A stretch of DNA of 21,607 bases from positions 1 to 21,607 of the IMG/VR virus record IMGVR_UViG_3300025101_000233; one strand, 5' to 3'. The DNA is from a virus. The notes under the pieces were generated by a model that made no database searches, was not told where the DNA came from, and saw only the letters and a program-made list of their open reading frames with translations. How positions within the stretch are numbered: position 1 is the stretch's first letter; each line of letters starts with the position of its first letter. Shown here piece by piece: positions 1 to 10,701 of this stretch. The translations under genes were made by a program, and so were the position numbers.

Positions 1-99
1 GCACGTAAGGATGATGTGAAAGATGATATGCACAATCTTATGGATGCACTCAAAAGATTAGAAGATAAGTTGGATAAAGTATTGATTGGAAATAGATAA
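1..99 (+). CDS. C-terminal end of an upstream late gene (partial)
   Basis: An open frame runs from the first base to a TAA at 97-99, giving 32 residues with no start inside the window. The fragment is charged, with many Lys and Asp residues and leucine/methionine heptad-like spacing (DALKRLEDKLDKVL), so it probably ends in a short coiled coil. It lies 8 bases before the ATP-grasp gene on the same strand and is probably the end of another gene of the late operon. The fragment is too short to assign a function. Confidence 0.65.
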   Translation, partial: ARKDDVKDDMHNLMDALKRLEDKLDKVLIGNR

Positions 100-107
100 A
101 GTTTAAT

Positions 108-875
108 ATGTCGGCATATTTATTTGGTCAATTAAGTGACCCTAATATTAAAGCACTAGAACCATACTTTGACAAATTCGTAGATCAATCTGCAAACATA
201 GAATGGAACATAACAGAAGATGTACTATACATAGAAGGTGAGCCTGTAACAGATTTAAATTCTATATTTTCAAGAAATAATGTATTTGAGGAGAACACTC
301 ACAAAAAGTATAATAATTTTCACATAATGAATAATTACCTACAGTGTCACAACGTAAACAAATACAATAAAAATTATAAATATGAGAACGTAACAAAGTT
401 AAACAACCTAATAATGGCTAAACAAATAGGTTTACAAATACCCTACACCGAAGTGACGGAAAAAAGCAACAGAGAAGATACCATAATAAAACCTGTCATA
501 GGTGGACAACATACTATAGATGGCAATGAAGCAAGCTACCCTTGTATTATACAACAAAAGATAACAGGTAAAAATAAAAGATTATATGTTATAAATAATA
601 AACATTTTGCCTTTGAGGTAATTACAGATAAGTTAGACTACAGAGATGATCCTGCAAGCACAGTTGTTGTAACAGAAATAGATGATGCCACTATAGAAAA
701 GGTTAAACATCTTATGTACAGATTAAATTTAAATTTTGGTGCTACGGATTTTATGGAAGATGAAAATGGACTTTGGTACTTGGAAACAAATACGGGTCCT
801 ATGTTTGTAGCTTTTGATACACAAGTGCAAGGTAAATTAGCTCAAGCAATAAGAAATGAACTTGATAATATATAG
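108..875 (+). CDS. ATP-grasp ligase, RimK/MvdD (graspetide synthetase)-like
   Basis: This 255-residue protein has the layout of a compact ATP-grasp ligase. Such enzymes activate a carboxylate as acyl-phosphate and join it to an amine or hydroxyl. Visible landmarks are a KLNNLIMAKQIGLQIPYT segment near 97-114 (the 'NK...A...GL..P.T' region of RimK and microviridin-type ligases), an ATP-binding IIKPVIGG near 126-133, QQKITG...RLYV near 149-161, FAFEV...DYRD near 168-180, and the metal-binding end FGATDFMEDENGLWYLETN near 210-228, where D214, E226 and N228 are the likely Mg ligands. RimK-family proteins act on protein or peptide carboxylates. The next gene starts 11 nt downstream and carries four graspetide-core-like repeats, which makes it the obvious substrate. 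The Shine-Dalgarno signal is weak. Other peptide-ligase roles, such as RimK-like amino-acid addition, cannot be excluded. The fold call is strong and the substrate is inferred. Confidence 0.85.
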   Translation: MSAYLFGQLSDPNIKALEPYFDKFVDQSANIEWNITEDVLYIEGEPVTDLNSIFSRNNVFEENTHKKYNNFHIMNNYLQCHNVNKYNKNYKYENVTKLNNLIMAKQIGLQIPYTEVTEKSNREDTIIKPVIGGQHTIDGNEASYPCIIQQKITGKNKRLYVINNKHFAFEVITDKLDYRDDPASTVVVTEIDDATIEKVKHLMYRLNLNFGATDFMEDENGLWYLETNTGPMFVAFDTQVQGKLAQAIRNELDNI

Positions 876-886
876 GCGTAACAAAT

Positions 887-2443
887 ATGACAACTAGGGC
901 AGTGGGTGAAGAAGGTGATTTTGCACAAATAACCACTATGGCTGTTGGTGAAGAATCTCCCGGAGGAATTGGTGGTGGTTTTGACCCTATTGCTAAAACT
1001 ATGGCAATCGGAGAAGATGATAATATACCAGACCCACCTAAGTTACTACCACCCGGTCAACTTCCTAAAACTAGAGCAATCGGAGAAGATGATAACATGG
1101 CAACAAAACCAGTTACAGATATTCAAGATACAATTGAAAAAAGAGCAGGTGCTACCGAGCTACCTGCTGGAACTAAATACAATCCTGTAATTCAACAAGT
1201 ACAAAGAGAGGAGCTTCTAACACCTCCGAGTGCATTGTCAACTGCTGATGCAGTAAGTCCTAGTCTTGTAACAACAGAAAATTTAGATGTTACTGTTCCT
1301 AGCAAACAAAATGCAGAAAAGTACACAGCAAGCACCATAGCAGGAACTCCTGAAGCAGTTGCGGCACAGGGCAAGTTATCATCTGAATCTGTAATAGGAG
1401 ACATACAGGGTGCAGTCAGCGAGGAATCCTTAGTTCAAGCCGCACAAGGTAAAGTATCTGAACAATCCACTGTCAAATATCAACTAGAGCAGTTATTCTC
1501 ATCTTTTGAAGAAGGTAAACCTTTACCTGCTTGGGCAGCTCCTGCAGTAAGAAATGTAGGTGCAATGATGCAAGCAAGAGGTCTTGGTGCATCTAGTATG
1601 GCTTCTGCGGCCATAACTCAAGCCATCATGGAATCAGGTATACCAATAGCCAAAGCCGATGCAGATAGATATGCACAAATGGACATGGCTAATCTGAACA
1701 ATCAACAACAGTCAGTTATGCAAAATGCCATGACCTATGCGGCTATGGACAAAGCTAACCTCGATGTTCGTACACAGATTGCAGTCAATAATGCTAAATC
1801 ATTTTTATCGATGGATTTACAAAATTTAGGTAGTGATCAAAAGATGAGAGAAATAGACTATGCAGGACAGCTACAGTCACTCACATCTAATCAGGCGGCC
1901 GAAAACTCAGCGGCTCAATTCAATGCCCAATCACAAAATCAAATAGATGAGTTCTTTGCTGAATTAGGTGGTCAACTTGAGACAGGAAATAAAAATCGTA
2001 AGGCTGCCCAAGAACAATTTAATGCAAATGAGAAGAACGCAATTGCTCAATACAACGCATCATTAGCCGATGCCCGTGAAAGATTTAATACAACAATGTC
2101 TACTCAAATAGCACAGTCAAATGCTGTGTGGCGTAGAGAAATAAACACAGCGGCAACTGCTAATCAAAATGCAGCCAATCAACAAAATGCTCAAAATCTG
2201 TTGGGTATAACTCAATCATCACTCGATGCGTTGTGGCAAAGATACAGAGATGAAGCAGGGTGGGCGTTGAAAATAGCAGAAAGCCAAGAACAACGTTTTC
2301 ACGAAATAGGTTTACTTGGTATGGAGATAGATTCAAACACTGATTTGTACGAGATGGAAAGTGATGCTACGTTTAGTACAGAATTAGGCAAAGCTGTGTT
2401 AAACGGTATATTTAAAGTCGGTTCAGTTTACGCGGCTAGATAA
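887..2443 (+). CDS. Virion-type structural protein with four graspetide-core-like repeats at its N-terminus
   Basis: This is a 518-residue protein in the late operon. Residues 1-75 are low complexity, rich in Gly and Pro, and hold four copies of (T/K)TxA(V/I)GE(E/D) at residues 2-9, 16-23, 37-45 and 61-69. The linkers between them look flexible (GGIGGG, PPKLLPPGQLP). Residues from about 195 to the end are rich in Ala, Gln and Asn and probably form long helices or coiled coils, as in phage internal-core, ejection or tail proteins. There is no catalytic domain that I recognise. The frame upstream is closed by a TAA at 866, so Met1 is the first possible start and the first repeat begins at residue 2. 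The neighbouring ATP-grasp gene suggests that the N-terminal repeats are enzymatically modified. Structural role is inferred from position and composition. Confidence 0.7.
   Translation: MTTRAVGEEGDFAQITTMAVGEESPGGIGGGFDPIAKTMAIGEDDNIPDPPKLLPPGQLPKTRAIGEDDNMATKPVTDIQDTIEKRAGATELPAGTKYNPVIQQVQREELLTPPSALSTADAVSPSLVTTENLDVTVPSKQNAEKYTASTIAGTPEAVAAQGKLSSESVIGDIQGAVSEESLVQAAQGKVSEQSTVKYQLEQLFSSFEEGKPLPAWAAPAVRNVGAMMQARGLGASSMASAAITQAIMESGIPIAKADADRYAQMDMANLNNQQQSVMQNAMTYAAMDKANLDVRTQIAVNNAKSFLSMDLQNLGSDQKMREIDYAGQLQSLTSNQAAENSAAQFNAQSQNQIDEFFAELGGQLETGNKNRKAAQEQFNANEKNAIAQYNASLADARERFNTTMSTQIAQSNAVWRREINTAATANQNAANQQNAQNLLGITQSSLDALWQRYRDEAGWALKIAESQEQRFHEIGLLGMEIDSNTDLYEMESDATFSTELGKAVLNGIFKVGSVYAAR
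890..1096 (+). repeat. Four tandem-type (T/K)TxA(V/I)GE(E/D) coding repeats
   Basis: The repeat units encode TTRAVGEE (890-913), TTMAVGEE (932-955), KTMAIGEDD (995-1021) and KTRAIGEDD (1067-1093). Spacers between them are 6, 13 and 15 residues. Units 3 and 4 with the following Asn codon (995-1024 and 1067-1096) match at 27 of 30 bases, so they look like a recent duplication. Units 1 and 2 match the TTxxxxEE core rule known for plesiocin-type graspetides. Units 3 and 4 replace the first Thr by Lys and the last Glu by Asp. Confidence 0.9.
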
Positions 2444-2457
2444 AGAAAGGTTAAGAT

Positions 2458-3012
2458 ATGTGGGATTGGTTAAGTAATATTTGGGGTGGAATAAGTAATA
2501 CAGTAGGATCAGTATATGATACTGTGGCTGATAGTTACGTAGGACAAGGTATAGAAAGTGCCTATGACTTTGTAACAGGAAATGAATCTTACGGTACTTT
2601 TAAAGATTCTGATTTTAATAACTTTAACTACAGTAGCACAGTATCTGGCTTAAAGACTGCAATGGATTTTGCTGGAGGTTTTATGGAAGTTATAGCACCA
2701 GCAGGAGCTACCACTCAAATGCCATCGTCTAAAAGAAGAAGAGTATCTGCACCGAACAGCACAGCAGGTTCAGCACAGTTTAATGCTAGTAAAAGTAATC
2801 TAGCAAACTTAGAATTTGGCTATACACCGAGAGTAAATGATGCTATAATAAAAGCAAACACAAGTAAAAATCCCTCAATAGAAATGGCAATAGCACAGAT
2901 GATGAACTACAAAGGTTCAGGTGGTACAACCATAAAGTTAGAAGGCTCTAAGATGCCTAGCGTGGCTGCCCGAACTAAAAAGCCATCATTTGCTCCTAAG
3001 TATTATGGATAA
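2458..3012 (+). CDS. Small late-operon protein, probably structural
   Basis: This 184-residue protein has no family that I recognise. The first 40 residues (MWDWLSNIWGGISNTVGS...) are Trp- and Gly-rich and likely amphipathic, which would suit membrane or protein contact. The middle carries a basic SKRRR patch near 111-115, and the C-terminal half is polar with many Ser, Asn and Lys residues. It follows the 518-residue repeat protein by 14 bases, with a GAAAGG ribosome-binding site before the ATG. Position suggests a minor virion or ejection component, but this is inference. Confidence 0.6.
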   Translation: MWDWLSNIWGGISNTVGSVYDTVADSYVGQGIESAYDFVTGNESYGTFKDSDFNNFNYSSTVSGLKTAMDFAGGFMEVIAPAGATTQMPSSKRRRVSAPNSTAGSAQFNASKSNLANLEFGYTPRVNDAIIKANTSKNPSIEMAIAQMMNYKGSGGTTIKLEGSKMPSVAARTKKPSFAPKYYG

Positions 3013-3017
3013 TAGAT

Positions 3018-3593
3018 ATGACACAAATTAGACCACCATTAGATATGAAGAACAGATCAAACGTTCAGATGAATCGTTTTAACAAAGCTCCTCCGGGATG
3101 GTCTTTGACTGAACCTAAAGGTAAATGGGCATGGGAAAAGCCACCTGTAAACTCTAGTCCTGCTCAAGCAGTTGACTCTGTTATAGACAGACTAGAAGCT
3201 CCTGAAGTACGTACTCAAATGGAAAAGCTAATGACTGCAGGTGTATCTATACAAGAGATAGTTAATACGATAGCAGTGGGTGGATTTAGTCAAGGTCAAT
3301 TTACTCCTGACGTAGCAGAGATAATTAAAGGTCCTTTGGCAGCTTACCTGATGGGGGTAGCAGCGGAAGAAGATATACCTGTAAAAGTTTACAATACAAA
3401 TGATGGTTTGTACAAGATAGACGAAGGTATGAGTGATGATGACATGATGAACGTTATGAAAGATAGAAACCCCGATCTGTATCAGTTCATACAATCAAAG
3501 GCTGATGAGATTGATGAAGAACCTGAACCGACTATTGAAAGAGGTTTCATAGCAATAGCTCCAGAAGAAGTATTAGAGGAAGGAACAATATAA
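3018..3593 (+). CDS. Late-operon protein, unknown, probably virion-associated
   Basis: This is a 191-residue protein. The N-terminus is Pro- and Trp-rich (RPPLDMKN..., PPGWSLTEPKGKWAWEKPP) and probably extended. A helical middle (VRTQMEKLMTAGVSIQEIVNTI) is followed by an acidic C-terminus with runs of Asp and Glu. No enzyme motif is visible. Its TAA shares the A with the ATG of the next gene (TAATG at 3591-3595), which points to translational coupling with the 645-residue protein. The tight coupling suggests that the two products are needed in fixed proportion. Function is not assigned. Confidence 0.6.
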   Translation: MTQIRPPLDMKNRSNVQMNRFNKAPPGWSLTEPKGKWAWEKPPVNSSPAQAVDSVIDRLEAPEVRTQMEKLMTAGVSIQEIVNTIAVGGFSQGQFTPDVAEIIKGPLAAYLMGVAAEEDIPVKVYNTNDGLYKIDEGMSDDDMMNVMKDRNPDLYQFIQSKADEIDEEPEPTIERGFIAIAPEEVLEEGTI

Positions 3594-5530
3594 TGGGATT
3601 AAGTGCAGGTGGTTTCTTCAAGAACTTTGTTAAAGGTGCGGCTCAACAGTATAATACTAATGTTGCATACGTAGAACAACAGAAGATAGAAGAAGAACGA
3701 GCAAAGAAGAAAGAAGCACGGAAATTTGCGTCTGACAAAAAGCTTAAAGAGATAGAGTATGGTTTTAAAGTAGAGGTTGAAAAAGCCAAAAGTGAAAACA
3801 AAAAGAAATATTTAGGTCAGTACAGTTACAAAAATGATAAGTTAGGTAAGTTTAATATTGCTATGCCAGAAGGATATGCTAGTTTAGCTGACGTAAAATC
3901 AAAGTATACAGTAGCAACAAATTTGTATGCAGAGCAAGTAAAAAATCTTCCAAAATTAAAAAACTCATTGACTGATCAAGGTTATCAAAATCTTCTTAGT
4001 GATATTGTTATGAACTATGCTGGAATGTCTACAGTCAAGGATGGCAAAGTTGAGGGTCAAGATGTAGAAATAGTATACAATCCTACCTACTACAAGACTA
4101 TGTTATCCAATCCTGATCTTGCTGAAGTATGGGGTAAACAACTTCAAAAAGACAAAGATGCTTTAGAATTGTACATAAAAAACACAAACGAAAATGCGTT
4201 TCTTGACTCAAAGGCTGAAATAAAAGAGACTAACGGAATGGTAAGCATGTCTATTCCCGGATTCTATGGAGCAGACAAACGTGGCACTTTTAAAAAGGAA
4301 GACATACTAGTTGCTCAAAGGTCTATATTAAGAACAGGTTCTACAAAAGACGTAATTAATTGGATGAACAATCAACAAAAATTTATGAAAGAGCAAACAA
4401 TAGATCACCAACAAAGATTTGGTGCAAACAGACCTGCCTACACAGGTAGTGATCTTATAAAAGCAATTGCTATAGCCAAGAGTGCTGTTAATTCAAGACT
4501 AGAGCCTAGTCAAGTAAGTGGCTTAACACCTGAAGTTGGTCAAGTTATACGAGACTCACTTAAACAACAAATGCCAGAGCTAGGAGAATACATAGTAAAT
4601 GACCCTCAAATTTTTCACCGAGTAATTAAAAACGCTTTACCTAGAAAAGCTAATCCTCCAATTAGACAAGTAAATAATCAACAGATTATGGCTAATAAAG
4701 AAGGATTTTTAAGTAGAATATTTGGTCCTGACAAAGGTAAATTAATTATAAACTCTTTGTCTAAAGCTCAACAATCAGGACAAAGGTTTGTTAGAGCAAA
4801 TGAAGTTGTAACTCTTGTTGATTCAGGAGCAGGAACTGGCTATGCTGCAGGTATTCAATCAGGAACAACTGGTTTTTTTGAACAGGCAAAAAGTTTAATA
4901 CAAAGAATGACAGGATACAAAAACGGTAGAAATGATTTAAGTGGCGTAGCAAACGATTTAGATAACGAAATGAATACGCTTGAACAAAGAATAGCTCAAG
5001 CAGAGACTCCTGCATTAAAAGAACAAATTGCACGAGATGCCTTGTTAAAATATACTACAACTCTTATGGTATTTGACATTGCTACTATGGCACAAGATGC
5101 AGGTGGTGGTTTGACAGCAGGAGGAACTACTGTAAGATTATCTGATGGTGACGTAAGATTATCTGCTCAAGCATTACAACAGAGCTTAAATGAAAATCCT
5201 ACTGCTATAAAAATAGTAGCTGTTAAAGTTGCTGAGTTAGCTGAAAAAGAAAAAGTAATATTTGAAATGATTTCTAGAGGGGATGTAGCTGAGGCAGGTG
5301 CTGCTTTAGTTATGTTAGATGCTTACAGAGGAGAACTAGGAGCATTGATTAGTTCTTTGCAAACAGATGGGGGAGCTTCCCTTGTAGGCAAAGATGATGA
5401 TGTAAACAAAAATGAAGGTTACAGATTCAGGGCAACACAAGATAACGATGTTGCAGAAGAAGAAAATCAAATAGCAGGCAGTGGCAATGTAGTTAATACT
5501 CAAGGCAAAAAGAGAAAGAAAGGTTTCTAA
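3593..5530 (+). CDS. Large internal-virion/ejection-like protein (T7 gp15 position)
   Basis: This is a 645-residue protein. Residues about 23-68 are a highly charged Lys/Glu helix (QQKIEEERAKKKEARK...) that looks like a coiled coil. The rest is mixed helical and polar, and the tail is basic (QGKKRKKGF). No catalytic motif is recognised. It lies between small structural genes and a 1603-residue protein. That order and size resemble the T7 gp15-gp16 pair of ejected core proteins, although no sequence match to T7 gp15 can be claimed from reading alone. Start and stop are both TAATG overlaps with the flanking genes (at 3593 and 5530), which firmly sets the reading frame limits. Confidence 0.6.
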   Translation: MGLSAGGFFKNFVKGAAQQYNTNVAYVEQQKIEEERAKKKEARKFASDKKLKEIEYGFKVEVEKAKSENKKKYLGQYSYKNDKLGKFNIAMPEGYASLADVKSKYTVATNLYAEQVKNLPKLKNSLTDQGYQNLLSDIVMNYAGMSTVKDGKVEGQDVEIVYNPTYYKTMLSNPDLAEVWGKQLQKDKDALELYIKNTNENAFLDSKAEIKETNGMVSMSIPGFYGADKRGTFKKEDILVAQRSILRTGSTKDVINWMNNQQKFMKEQTIDHQQRFGANRPAYTGSDLIKAIAIAKSAVNSRLEPSQVSGLTPEVGQVIRDSLKQQMPELGEYIVNDPQIFHRVIKNALPRKANPPIRQVNNQQIMANKEGFLSRIFGPDKGKLIINSLSKAQQSGQRFVRANEVVTLVDSGAGTGYAAGIQSGTTGFFEQAKSLIQRMTGYKNGRNDLSGVANDLDNEMNTLEQRIAQAETPALKEQIARDALLKYTTTLMVFDIATMAQDAGGGLTAGGTTVRLSDGDVRLSAQALQQSLNENPTAIKIVAVKVAELAEKEKVIFEMISRGDVAEAGAALVMLDAYRGELGALISSLQTDGGASLVGKDDDVNKNEGYRFRATQDNDVAEEENQIAGSGNVVNTQGKKRKKGF

Positions 5531-8500
5531 TGGTATCTGTTCGAGAAATTCAAAGTAATATTATAGAAGAAGAAACTAAGGATGATTCTGAAAAAAATAC
5601 TCCTGAAGTAAAACCTAATAATTTCTTAGATGATATAAACATTAAAGATAGCGATGCCGCAAGTCTTGACAACAGATTTTTCAGTGGAGCTACGGACAGA
5701 CCTGAAGAGCTACGTAATGACATCAATAATGCAATAGGGTATAGAAGTTTTAAATCGTATTACGACAGATATTTAGAAGATGAAAAAAAATTTAATCCTA
5801 ATGCTAAACTTATGAACAAAGTTGATTTTCAAAAGTTAGCCACTGAAGGAAAGATAATTGATGAAAATGACGGTAGTGTAGTTGACAACGTAGATAGCTC
5901 CCCCCTTGTACGTTTTGCAGAGGGTATGACCTACGAAGACAAAATAAAAGCAATGGCTAACAACAGAGCTAAAGAAATAGAGACTGCAGATTCTATAACT
6001 GATCTACCCGTTAATCGTCTTCTTACTAAATTTGCAGAACCAGTAAGAGATAAGAAAGAGCCAGTTCGTTTACCTAAAGGCAAGCCATTTTACATTGATA
6101 CAGAAGGTAACAAAGTTCAACTAGAAGAACGACCTTTGTTTGGCAACGTGGGAGAAGAAGGTAAAATTGTATTAGATTACGAAAACCCTGCCTTACTGTT
6201 TAAAAATTTTCTTGATAAAAAAACAAACTTAAGTGAATATCAAAAGTCAATGTTGATAAAGGCACAGGCTACTCAAGGGTTTATGGACACAGATAAGTCT
6301 TTAGAATCATACAGAACTGTGAATTACTCTAAAGACATGGTAAGAATGTTGGGTAACGCTAGTTTGTTTATGATTGAAGCTGGTGTCAACACTTTTAGTG
6401 ATTTACTAAAAGGTGCTGATGACGAAGAAACTCCTGAGTGGATGAAATCTATGAGACTTCCTGACACTCACATAGAATATGGTTCTGAAATATTTTCTCA
6501 AAGAACAGGTATAGATGTAGAAACAGCAGAAAGAATACTTGATTGGAGTCCTGACTTCATAGACCCAATTAAAAGAGAGTTTGTATCAGGACTACCAATT
6601 GCAGGTATGTTGAGCATAGCTAAATTTGGTGGAGTGATGCTACGAAATTCAGGATTTAGAAGTCACATTAAAAATAAATTTGGTGGTAAAACTTTTGAAG
6701 AAGCTTTTGAAACAGGGATGAAGCAAGGACAGAGCTATGACTCCATGTTAACTGGGTATGCTGAAACTGGGCTATTCAATTCCCCATTTTTAAATAGTTG
6801 GAAAAAGTCATCCACTATAGATTCTATAAATTCTGTGTCAGTTTTAAAAAATTACAGCAGAAGAGTTGATACTACTGATGTAGATAACATGATTAAAACA
6901 CAAGGAGACAGAGTATCTGAACTTTCTGAAAGAAGACTTAGTGATCCAAAATGGCATGATGCTTGGAGAAAAGAATCAGATACTTTAAAAGAATTACAGA
7001 ATAGAAAAAGAGATATGTTCCTAATGGCTAGGATTCCCAAAAAGTTTTTAAGTGCTATAAAGACAGAAGGGTTTCCTGCAATCGGTGTTGGTCTATCTAA
7101 GCATACACATCAAGAATATTTTGAAGATCAAAACGAAACTATGTTTGAATTTGGTGGTATTGCTTTAGGTTTATTTGGTGAAAAGGTAATGCTAGGGCGT
7201 ACAGGTAGCATGAGAAGCGTTCTTAACGGGGCGTTTACAAAAGACATAGCATCGGGTAAAAAGAAAATAGCTGAAGATTTTGTAGGTAACTTGTATGTAA
7301 AGTCTCCTGCATTAGCTCAAAACTTTGAGGATGGTCTAGAAGCTACACTTGCGTTAGAAAACAGATTAATGTCCTTAAGAGATGTTCAAGGCAAACCTAT
7401 TATAACTAGTCCTGATCTTGTATCAAAGACCATAGAAAATATAGGTGTGCTAAACATTTTAAAACAAACTGCAGGCTCTGCAAATAATTCTATAAAAGCA
7501 GGCGATGCTATGAATTTTAGCACTAAGTTCGTGGGTTTACAGACTAAACTTATAGATCAAAAGGTACTAAACGAAGAACTAGCTGACGCAGTTAACAAGC
7601 TTAACGTTGCAGCAACTTCTCCTAATATTACAGAAGCCGACTTGAAGTTTATAAAGGGATTGCAACGCTACGCAAAAGATAGTCAAACTTCCCTACAAAA
7701 AGAAATAGATGACTTCTACACAAATATAGATGACTCTACTGCTCTGTTACTTTTGAGAGCATCAGGTGCAAACATAGGTGGGGGTAAGTTAGATGACACA
7801 GGTGAGTTGCTTAACACACTAAACATGACACGCAAGAAAATGGACATAGCTTTAGGTAAAACATCTGAACAAATAACAGAAGAGTTAAATCAAAGGCTAC
7901 TTACATTCGATCAAGCGATAATGGATTTTACTAGAAAGACAGAAAACTCTAAAAGAATAATAACTAAGGATATGTCTAAGATAACTAGCTTGGCTTTTAA
8001 CTACATTAAAGAAGGCAAGTATCAAAAAGTATCTAATGGTTTTAATGTACTAAGAGAACAAAACAAAAATGCTTTCATGGATGCTTCTAGTGTTCTTGAT
8101 ACAATGATAGGTAACGTGGATGACTCTCTATTATTAGGCTCTGATGCAGCCAAAAGAATTGGTGGCACTAAATTGTCTGCAATTCAAAACTCAAACATGG
8201 GTGCTGTCTTAAATGATGCAGCCGATAATTTTTTTAACTCTAGACCTGAATTAACAGATGCAGTTAACGCAGTTAAATTAGAGTATCCAAATGCTACCTC
8301 TTTAGAAATATGGTCTGCTTTAAAACAGCAAGGTATTGAAAAAGGTCAGGACATAATGAAATTACCTTTGAACTTTGTAGATTTTGAGTTAGTAGCATCA
8401 GGTCTTTCAAGTGTTGCATATAAAGGGCAGGGAACTAGAGGTTCACTTCCTGTAAAAGAACTAAGAGACTCTTTATTTAAAGCTGCTGAAGACTCAAACA

Positions 8501-10341
8501 CAGGTTTTAAAGTGGGATTCTTTGATAAGTCAGGAGGAGTTCTTATAAGTGATAAGGTTATGAACAACTACAAACAAGTTAAAAATGCTTATATGGACTA
8601 TGCCGAAAGATATGATAAGGGAACTATTGGTGGTAATTGGTTAAGCACAGTGGTTAGCAAGGGTGAAGACGGTATAATATACAAAACAAAACAGAATCCT
8701 GCTAACTGGGTAGCAAATGAAGTAAACTCATACATCAAAGGTAACAAGTTATCCTCTCTAAGTACAGATTTTATGTCAGATATGGCATCCGTATTCAATG
8801 GAGTAAAGGTAGCAGGGGGTAAAAATACTCCTGTATCTTACCAATTTGTTGAAGGTCAAAGAGGAACTAGATCATTTAAAAGTTTGATGAAGAATAACTT
8901 AAAACTGATGGCTATCAATGCTAGTTCTGGTGGTAAAGGTATACAAAAGTTACGAGATGATCCTGTATTCAGAGGAAAGTTCTTGACTAGTAAAGAAATT
9001 AATGATGGTCGTGAGCTAATAGGTGAGGGTGACAAAGATCAATTTGCTGCCGTAATGTCACAGATGCAAAACGCCACTATGGTAAAACAAGATGGAACGA
9101 TTGTACCTATGTTTAGCCAAGCTGACATTGATTCAATCTATGATGTAGGTGGAATAGATGAGCTTGTAAGAGTTAGTAAGCCTGCCAAACTGTATGTTAA
9201 CAATGCTTTAGATGCTGTGAGAAAGAATGTTGATGAAGTAAGAAAGCCTGAAAGCACACAAGCAAAAGAGTTAAAGGCTGAAGCTGATTTGATGACAAAG
9301 TATGGTAGCAACCTAACTCCACAGGTTATATCAAAAGCTCTTAGCGAAGGAACAATAGGATTAAATAATTTAGATAGTGTAAGAACTGGTTACATACGTA
9401 GTTTAAAACAAAGAGGTGTAACAGGAAAAGCTTTCGATGATAACATAAGACGATATGATAAGTTGATAGCCAAGCAGGCTCTAGAACACATACAAACAGG
9501 ATCAGTAAAACCTGTACAGGGAACAATAGGAAATGTATCTAAGCCTATACCTACTTCAATTGATCCTGCTGCTATGTGGAAAAAATTAGGTGGAGAGTCA
9601 ACTACTCAAGAAACTGCGGCCATAAAACAAATATTAAATAGAGCAACGGGAGATGACAAACTATTTGAGAACTTGCAAGCAATAGCAGGTTTAATGAATA
9701 CTAGAGTTCCCGGAGCAAGTTCAGGTGTAAACTTTGCAGGAATACCTCGTGGTTTATCTGTAGAATCATATATAAGTAGAGTCTATTCTATGGCTAGGGA
9801 AGTTGTATCATTCAAGTACGTAGCAACTGAAGCAGTCTTACAGACTATGAGAATGAAAAAGTTCAGTGCTTTTGAAGCTATGATAGATGATCCAGAGATT
9901 GCTGAACATGTTGTTAAAATTATAAAAACTGGAAAACCTTTAACAGAAAAATTAGCAACAAACTTTTTGCAACTTATGACTAACGCTGTTGCAAAACAAG
10001 TTGTTAAGTATGAAAGTGCAGAAGGTTCAAGATTAAATCCAAATGCAGGCGAGGGATTCTTTTCTTCAGATGGGAATGGGGTAATTAACAATTACAACAA
10101 GTACACTAAACAAGGAGAAGAAAAAGGATTTTTGATAGGAGGTATAAGTAAAGAAGCTATGAAAGTACCTAGAGAGGGAGAATACTTAACTCCTAACTTA
10201 TTAAAAGTAATAACTCCGGGAGCTAGTGTGGGTGAAAAATTTGATGTAAGAAAGAAGCCTGAATTTTTAGGTGGCTCAGTTGACACTGACCCTAATACTT
10301 TGACAGGTGCAGAAAAGCTATTCGGAAGAGTAGTTAGATAA
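5530..10341 (+). CDS. Giant internal-virion/ejection-like protein (T7 gp16 position)
   Basis: At 1603 residues this is the largest gene in the window. It starts in a TAATG overlap with the 645-residue gene. The N-terminal 60 residues are acidic and probably disordered. The body is mostly helical and polar, with a few short apolar stretches (for example near residues 355-370, GLPIAGMLSIAKFGGVML, and 540-555). I see no lysozyme or lytic transglycosylase motif of the kind carried at the N-terminus of T7 gp16. Length, position after a gp15-like gene and lack of enzyme motifs fit a DNA-ejection or internal core protein. Alternatives are a tail tape-measure-like or a fibre-associated protein. The C-terminus is followed by a ribosome-binding site for the last late gene. 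Confidence 0.6.
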   Translation: MVSVREIQSNIIEEETKDDSEKNTPEVKPNNFLDDINIKDSDAASLDNRFFSGATDRPEELRNDINNAIGYRSFKSYYDRYLEDEKKFNPNAKLMNKVDFQKLATEGKIIDENDGSVVDNVDSSPLVRFAEGMTYEDKIKAMANNRAKEIETADSITDLPVNRLLTKFAEPVRDKKEPVRLPKGKPFYIDTEGNKVQLEERPLFGNVGEEGKIVLDYENPALLFKNFLDKKTNLSEYQKSMLIKAQATQGFMDTDKSLESYRTVNYSKDMVRMLGNASLFMIEAGVNTFSDLLKGADDEETPEWMKSMRLPDTHIEYGSEIFSQRTGIDVETAERILDWSPDFIDPIKREFVSGLPIAGMLSIAKFGGVMLRNSGFRSHIKNKFGGKTFEEAFETGMKQGQSYDSMLTGYAETGLFNSPFLNSWKKSSTIDSINSVSVLKNYSRRVDTTDVDNMIKTQGDRVSELSERRLSDPKWHDAWRKESDTLKELQNRKRDMFLMARIPKKFLSAIKTEGFPAIGVGLSKHTHQEYFEDQNETMFEFGGIALGLFGEKVMLGRTGSMRSVLNGAFTKDIASGKKKIAEDFVGNLYVKSPALAQNFEDGLEATLALENRLMSLRDVQGKPIITSPDLVSKTIENIGVLNILKQTAGSANNSIKAGDAMNFSTKFVGLQTKLIDQKVLNEELADAVNKLNVAATSPNITEADLKFIKGLQRYAKDSQTSLQKEIDDFYTNIDDSTALLLLRASGANIGGGKLDDTGELLNTLNMTRKKMDIALGKTSEQITEELNQRLLTFDQAIMDFTRKTENSKRIITKDMSKITSLAFNYIKEGKYQKVSNGFNVLREQNKNAFMDASSVLDTMIGNVDDSLLLGSDAAKRIGGTKLSAIQNSNMGAVLNDAADNFFNSRPELTDAVNAVKLEYPNATSLEIWSALKQQGIEKGQDIMKLPLNFVDFELVASGLSSVAYKGQGTRGSLPVKELRDSLFKAAEDSNTGFKVGFFDKSGGVLISDKVMNNYKQVKNAYMDYAERYDKGTIGGNWLSTVVSKGEDGIIYKTKQNPANWVANEVNSYIKGNKLSSLSTDFMSDMASVFNGVKVAGGKNTPVSYQFVEGQRGTRSFKSLMKNNLKLMAINASSGGKGIQKLRDDPVFRGKFLTSKEINDGRELIGEGDKDQFAAVMSQMQNATMVKQDGTIVPMFSQADIDSIYDVGGIDELVRVSKPAKLYVNNALDAVRKNVDEVRKPESTQAKELKAEADLMTKYGSNLTPQVISKALSEGTIGLNNLDSVRTGYIRSLKQRGVTGKAFDDNIRRYDKLIAKQALEHIQTGSVKPVQGTIGNVSKPIPTSIDPAAMWKKLGGESTTQETAAIKQILNRATGDDKLFENLQAIAGLMNTRVPGASSGVNFAGIPRGLSVESYISRVYSMAREVVSFKYVATEAVLQTMRMKKFSAFEAMIDDPEIAEHVVKIIKTGKPLTEKLATNFLQLMTNAVAKQVVKYESAEGSRLNPNAGEGFFSSDGNGVINNYNKYTKQGEEKGFLIGGISKEAMKVPREGEYLTPNLLKVITPGASVGEKFDVRKKPEFLGGSVDTDPNTLTGAEKLFGRVVR

Positions 10342-10362: not shown

Positions 10363-10701
10363 ATGAAGATGTATAACAATGGTCCACGCAAAGGCATGAT
10401 GTATGGTGGTGGTGCTACCCCAAGAAAGCCTATGATGTACGGTGGCATGGCTACTAAAAAGAAAATGCAAATGGGTGGACTTGCTGAACAGAACAGAAAA
10501 AAGAATACTGCTCAAGCACCTGCTATGAATCCAATGGGTGACATGACCGAACAGAAAAGATTTAGCATGGGTATGATGTACGGTGGCGAAGCTATGAAGA
10601 AGAAAAAGAAAATGCTCTACGGTGGTCAAGCTAAGTTAGATATGAATAAAAATAATAAGATAGACAAAGAAGACTTCAAAATGCTTAAGAAGAAGAAGTA
10701 G
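10363..10701 (+). CDS. Small basic MYGG-repeat protein with a C-terminal EF-hand-like loop
   Basis: This 112-residue protein is the last gene of the rightward block. A strong AAGGAG (10349-10354) sits 8 bases before the ATG. It is rich in Met, Gly and Lys and contains five copies of an M-x-(Y/M)-GG-x-A motif at residues 12-18, 24-30, 35-41, 71-77 and 84-90. Residues 93-104 (DMNKNNKIDKED) fit a single EF-hand or dockerin-type calcium loop, with D93, N95, N97, I100, D101 and D104 in the right places. The protein ends in a lysine run. Role is unknown; calcium binding is a prediction. Its last 17 coding bases overlap the convergent tiny gene at 10685-10807. Confidence 0.75.
   Translation: MKMYNNGPRKGMMYGGGATPRKPMMYGGMATKKKMQMGGLAEQNRKKNTAQAPAMNPMGDMTEQKRFSMGMMYGGEAMKKKKKMLYGGQAKLDMNKNNKIDKEDFKMLKKKK
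10396..10632 (+). repeat. Degenerate M-x-(Y/M)-GG-x-A coding repeats
   Basis: Five short protein repeats are encoded here: MMYGGGA, MMYGGMA, MQMGGLA, MMYGGEA and MLYGGQA. They are separated by Lys/Arg-rich linkers. At the DNA level the ATGATGTA(T/C)GGTGG core recurs. The repeat explains the histidine-rich antisense frame on the other strand, which is an artefact. Confidence 0.8.

Follow-up and report, generated by a model that had tools for sequence, protein, structure and literature searches.

Why does a phage carry the gene for an ATP-grasp ligase directly upstream of a virion-type gene whose product begins with repeated TTxxxxEE-like motifs? Known graspetides are secreted peptides, short and made from dedicated precursors. 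We analysed the whole of a 21.6-kb viral record (IMGVR_UViG_3300025101_000233, hereafter the window), a fragment that its virion protein, its ribonucleotide reductase and DNA polymerase and the order of its genes assign to an HMO-2011-type phage (PMC9038755). In the window the ligase gene (108..875, + strand; 255 aa) ends 11 nt before the gene for the carrier, a virion-type protein of 518 aa (887..2443, +) whose N-terminal 69 aa form the repeat array; both reading frames are present as given in a preliminary description of this DNA. Judging from sequence and gene context, we think it likely that the locus is a phage-borne module of the plesiocin type and that the carrier is stapled at its repeats, a judgement that concerns stapling and does not extend to function.

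The array holds four repeats on the + strand. The first, TTRAVGEE (890..913), is predicted to form an outer and an inner Thr-Glu ring and is followed at the carrier N-terminus by TTMAVGEE (932..955); KTMAIGED (995..1018), with a predicted Lys-Asp outer amide and Thr-Glu inner ester, precedes KTRAIGED (1067..1090). The TTxxxxEE cores described earlier for these 69 residues therefore stand for repeats 1 and 2, while repeats 3 and 4 read KTxxxxED; other contigs have up to eight repeats. Among 14,559 open reading frames (minimum 35 aa) of the collected loci, two or more strict repeats were found only in the virion protein of ligase-bearing contigs, and the window repeats are beyond chance. Synonymous codon differences among them show that at least some are not very recent copies. 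HMO-2011-type carriers span 518-1061 aa and are not small precursors with an N-terminal leader; in the window the first repeat starts at residue 2, which leaves such a leader no room, and no leader peptide was noticed.

The carrier is a QFN-repeat homologue of HMO-2011 phage1322_25 and HTVC033P gp56. The window carrier has no match in Pfam, the carrier profile has none in the PDB and single carriers have none in PHROG, so that its role rests on gene order, from which we infer that it is a virion protein; our literature search found no virion proteomics for it or its homologues. Gene order likewise marks the 184-, 191-, 645- and 1603-aa proteins of the remaining late operon (2458..10341, +) as presumed internal or ejection proteins. 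Beyond them, window positions 10363-10701 encode a small protein that contains MMYGG/MYGG repeats and whose end weakly resembles an EF-hand or dockerin. In relatives, the slot between the tail-fibre genes and the virion-type carrier gene is a cargo site. It holds genes that look by eye like 2OG-Fe(II) oxygenases (L033:7844-8491, L034:8506-9039, L013:6752-8612 and L021:9076-9645), genes annotated as such (L002:6700-8044 and HTVC033P) and also a PP-loop (QueC-like) protein. Some of these enzymes might likewise modify virion proteins.

Sequence profiles identify the ligase as a graspetide ligase rather than RimK or Ddl. Single-sequence searches were weak, yet the best four NCBIfam models were all graspetide ligases (SAV_5884 at 9.4e-12, grasp-with-spasm, MvdC and MvdD). 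No curated NCBIfam cut-off was reached, the best being TIGR04187 at 44.8 against 350 bits, and myxobacterial TIGR04187 matches likewise fall under it. Pfam gave no match up to E 10. Searched against the PDB, a profile built from 18 phage ligases gave six clear matches, all to graspetide ligases: PsnB at the top (1.3e-13), then AMdnB, MdnB, CdnC, PruB and MdnC. The one remaining row (5njt, 0.12) is due to chance, and RimK is absent. TIGR00768, the RimK-family model, was not reported for the window ligase and reached 16.2 against 143.4 bits in L006. K128, R158, LDYRDD 176-181 (IDYRED in L120), D214, E226, N228 and PMFxAFD 231-237 form the invariant core, and the five single residues are unchanged in 18 of 18 phage ligases. 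An AlphaFold model from these 18 diverse sequences reached a pLDDT of 88.9 (seven near-identical ligases as input gave only 30) and has the ATP-grasp fold and catalytic residues. Its best 19 Foldseek matches are graspetide ligase chains (PsnB, PruB and AMdnB), but structural Z scores of 20.4 for RimK and 20.2 for PsnB are a tie. Fold therefore cannot separate the two, and the type of substrate has to be judged from sequence and context.

That context was surveyed by scanning IMG/VR separately with the ligase, the repeat DNA and the virion protein. Besides the window, 41 further contigs encode the ligase. Repeat DNA alone found nine stretches, eight of them ligase-bearing phage contigs (two with just the 3' end of the ligase, at the contig edge) and one, in L028, rejected as a chance match in an unrelated tape-measure protein. 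Ligase-only and repeat-only scans each recovered the other partner, and every ligase match near the virion protein came with repeats. Among 85 virion-protein clusters made at 95% identity, ten have both ligase and repeats, none the ligase only, one the repeats only (a single weak copy) and 74 neither (p=3.5e-12, a value that overstates independence because the clusters share ancestry and is not a strict probability). An empty site is seen in L014, L034 and L037, where the small gene whose 3' end (1..99, +) forms the left flank of the ligase insertion in the window directly abuts a virion-protein gene, with neither ligase nor repeats. L062 and L063 contain a single repeat-like word and no ligase seen on the contig; in L062 (9983-12583) it is a lone TTMAAGEE in the virion protein, a possible relic of a lost array. 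The ligase is absent from 50,697 isolate-phage records.

The same association recurs on other carriers. The ligase family adjoins a different repeat protein in L116-L118 and yet another in L150, L152 and L153. Other contigs have a lone ligase near a DNA polymerase and carry the repeats in a separate region, in either a proline-rich protein or a transglycosylase (SLT, 4.1e-22). Repeats are present on six of six such lone-ligase contigs that reach 17.8 kb or more and whose ligase is intact; shorter ones often stop short of any carrier. Once the repeats are masked, neither comparisons among these carriers nor comparisons with the virion protein give significant similarity (best E 0.073 and 0.62). 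In L136 the ligase has two internal deletions relative to L119, amid flanks about 92% identical, and the contig encodes a transglycosylase homologue (46-50% identity with the L140 protein) from which the repeat block is missing. Ligase and repeats co-occur almost perfectly and are lost jointly. Such co-occurrence, the several carriers and the joint loss refute the notion that ligase and repeats are unrelated genes that happen to be neighbours; the survey turned up nothing in its favour, and we give it practically no credence.

Bacterial genomes, scanned with the ligase alone, yielded 13 relatives, seven of which lie next to proteins bearing 2-14 repeats, in Polyangia (L163), Thermoanaerobaculia (L160), Sphingomonas (L162, L170) and Neomegalonema (L161, L164, L166). 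As in the phages, a homologous ligase stands beside a repeat protein, and the Polyangia repeats share the phage words TTMAVGEE, TTRAVGEE and TTQAVGEE; unlike the phage loci, these are chromosomal, with short precursor-like carriers and ligases only 24-28% identical. The precursor-like proteins of L160, L163, L162 and L170 share a terminal NPFGxF or NAFGxR, a possible follower sequence. Five further Neomegalonema ligases (L165, L167-L169 and L171) have no repeat protein within 2 kb, and may act on a substrate encoded in another part of the genome. In our tree, which does not include PsnB itself and whose bacterial set was collected with the phage profile, phage ligases form one clade (100/100) inside a 100/100 group shared with bacterial ligases, most of which adjoin TT...GEE repeat proteins; hhalign supports this grouping (E 1.2e-44). 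An IMG/VR scan with the bacterial ligases added no phage lineage. Marine bacteriophages appear to have taken over a bacterial stapling enzyme along with the repeats it acts on and to have incorporated these repeats into particle-type proteins of their own. The preliminary description had named two sequence-based checks of its proposal, a profile search with the ligase and a survey of homologous loci. Both came out in its favour, and neither a ligase placed far from peptide-modifying ATP-grasp enzymes nor independent occurrence of ligase and repeats was seen.

When the repeats are anchored on A[VIM]G alone, 74 of 75 phage cases retain both T2 and E7, and the exception is not a repeat. In phage repeats, every E8 has T1 as its partner (32/32) and every K1 has D8 (21/21); within-array shuffles reproduced the E8-T1 or K1-D8 pairing in 0 of 20,000 trials, the repeats being copied within arrays and not fully independent. 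Three bacterial repeats pair K1 with E8. A rule of T1-E8 or K1-D8 for every repeat was rejected, as many have a non-nucleophile at position 1; these are probably single-ring. Replacing Thr-Glu by a longer Lys and a shorter Asp is the swap that would be expected for a direct side-chain link. Positions 1 and 8 covary like a side-chain pair, which lends indirect support to the predicted ester and amide rings. Phages mostly have M, R or Q at position 3, also A, L and others; these residues are mixed within arrays, as would be expected of a position that sets protease specificity.

Plesiocin, a group 2 graspetide of Myxococcota, offers the closest precedent, its ligase PsnB being the best PDB match by both profile and Foldseek. 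Both systems set repeated TTxxxxEE cores beside a single ligase, and a hairpin ring-in-ring topology is predicted for the phage. Unlike plesiocin, the phage cores lie in virion-type proteins instead of a small precursor with a leader, include K1-D8 and single-ring variants, and are served by a shorter ligase. The microviridin enzymes MdnB and MdnC belong to the same ATP-grasp macrocyclase family and make esters and amides, but work as two ligases on a different core with a PFFARFL-type leader. R2K ligases of jumbo phages are also phage-borne ATP-grasp peptide ligases; they appear to form a different clade, and host proteins are their proposed targets (PMC7824862, PMC4431377). Membership of the window ligase in R2K was considered and set aside. 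HMO-2011-type phages share the virion-protein homologue, gene order, ribonucleotide reductase and DNA polymerase with the window (PMC9038755), whereas the annotated isolates inspected, HMO-2011 and HTVC033P, have no ligase gene. Our literature search, in which few subscription journals were represented, found no phage graspetide, in agreement with the preliminary description, which knew of no such case.

We propose a model in which plesiocin-type cores moved into a virion-type protein. The ligase would phosphorylate Glu and Asp side chains of each [T/K]Tx-A-[V/I/M]-G-E-[E/D] repeat and join T2 to E7 as an inner ester, adding an outer ring where the chemistry permits, either a T1-E8 ester or a K1-D8 amide. 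A flexible array would thereby become a string of ring-in-ring hairpins that remains part of its carrier. The ligase might instead act like RimK, adding glutamates or other amino acids to the acidic GEE/GED motif with no intramolecular rings. The tie between RimK and PsnB by fold and a weak PHROG match to ribosomal protein S6 glutaminyl transferase speak for such tagging, but RimK is missing from the PDB profile matches, tagging would leave the conserved T2 and the T1-E8/K1-D8 covariation without a reason, and bacterial relatives adjoin precursor-like arrays; we regard it as improbable. Scarcely better are the prospects of an array that is cut from its carrier and acts on its own as a peptide, with the virion protein serving just as a vehicle. 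This would suit the N-terminal array of the window and the short precursor-like bacterial homologues, but the array is internal, with domains on both sides, in L005, L006, L024, L029 and the transglycosylase carriers, and no protease or exporter was recognised in the cassette.

What stapling would do for the phage is a separate matter. By appearance the carriers are ejected or internal virion proteins, with a lytic transglycosylase in another phage group. The likeliest use of stapled arrays would be to shield the carriers while they cross the host envelope, either as tethered serine-protease inhibitors with several heads or as linkers that proteases cannot cut. Graspetides characterised to date inhibit proteases (PMC8939145), and the potency of plesiocin increases with motif number (PMC13097080); together with the mix at position 3 and the ejected-looking carriers, protease inhibition makes tethered inhibition or protease resistance the leading predicted role. 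The fuller scenario, in which several phage groups eject proteins bearing such inhibitor arrays and so withstand or inactivate the proteases of the envelope while the genome is delivered, is offered tentatively, at less than an even chance. The rings could also form and serve as stiff mechanical spacers or in host binding, a serious possibility if short of an even chance. Phage arrays sit in hypervariable linkers in 1 to 8 copies, as this would suggest, but the variation at position 3 resembles that of a protease-specificity loop, and inhibition is what characterised graspetides do. The earlier suggestion that the hairpins stabilise the particle is one of several possibilities, and protease inhibition fits known graspetide biology better.

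In a broader context, the enzyme class that makes graspetides seems to modify large virion-type proteins of phages as well, with the module on several unrelated carriers in different phages. The predicted hairpins on these proteins would perhaps be tethered protease inhibitors or armour. If confirmed, this would be a new particle modification for phages and a new use of stapling chemistry, and a ligase able to staple repeats that have no obvious leader would be useful for protein engineering. It would also suggest proteolysis as a barrier during DNA delivery, and, if ejected inhibitor arrays prove true, they would be both a previously undescribed virion post-translational modification and a form of counter-defence.
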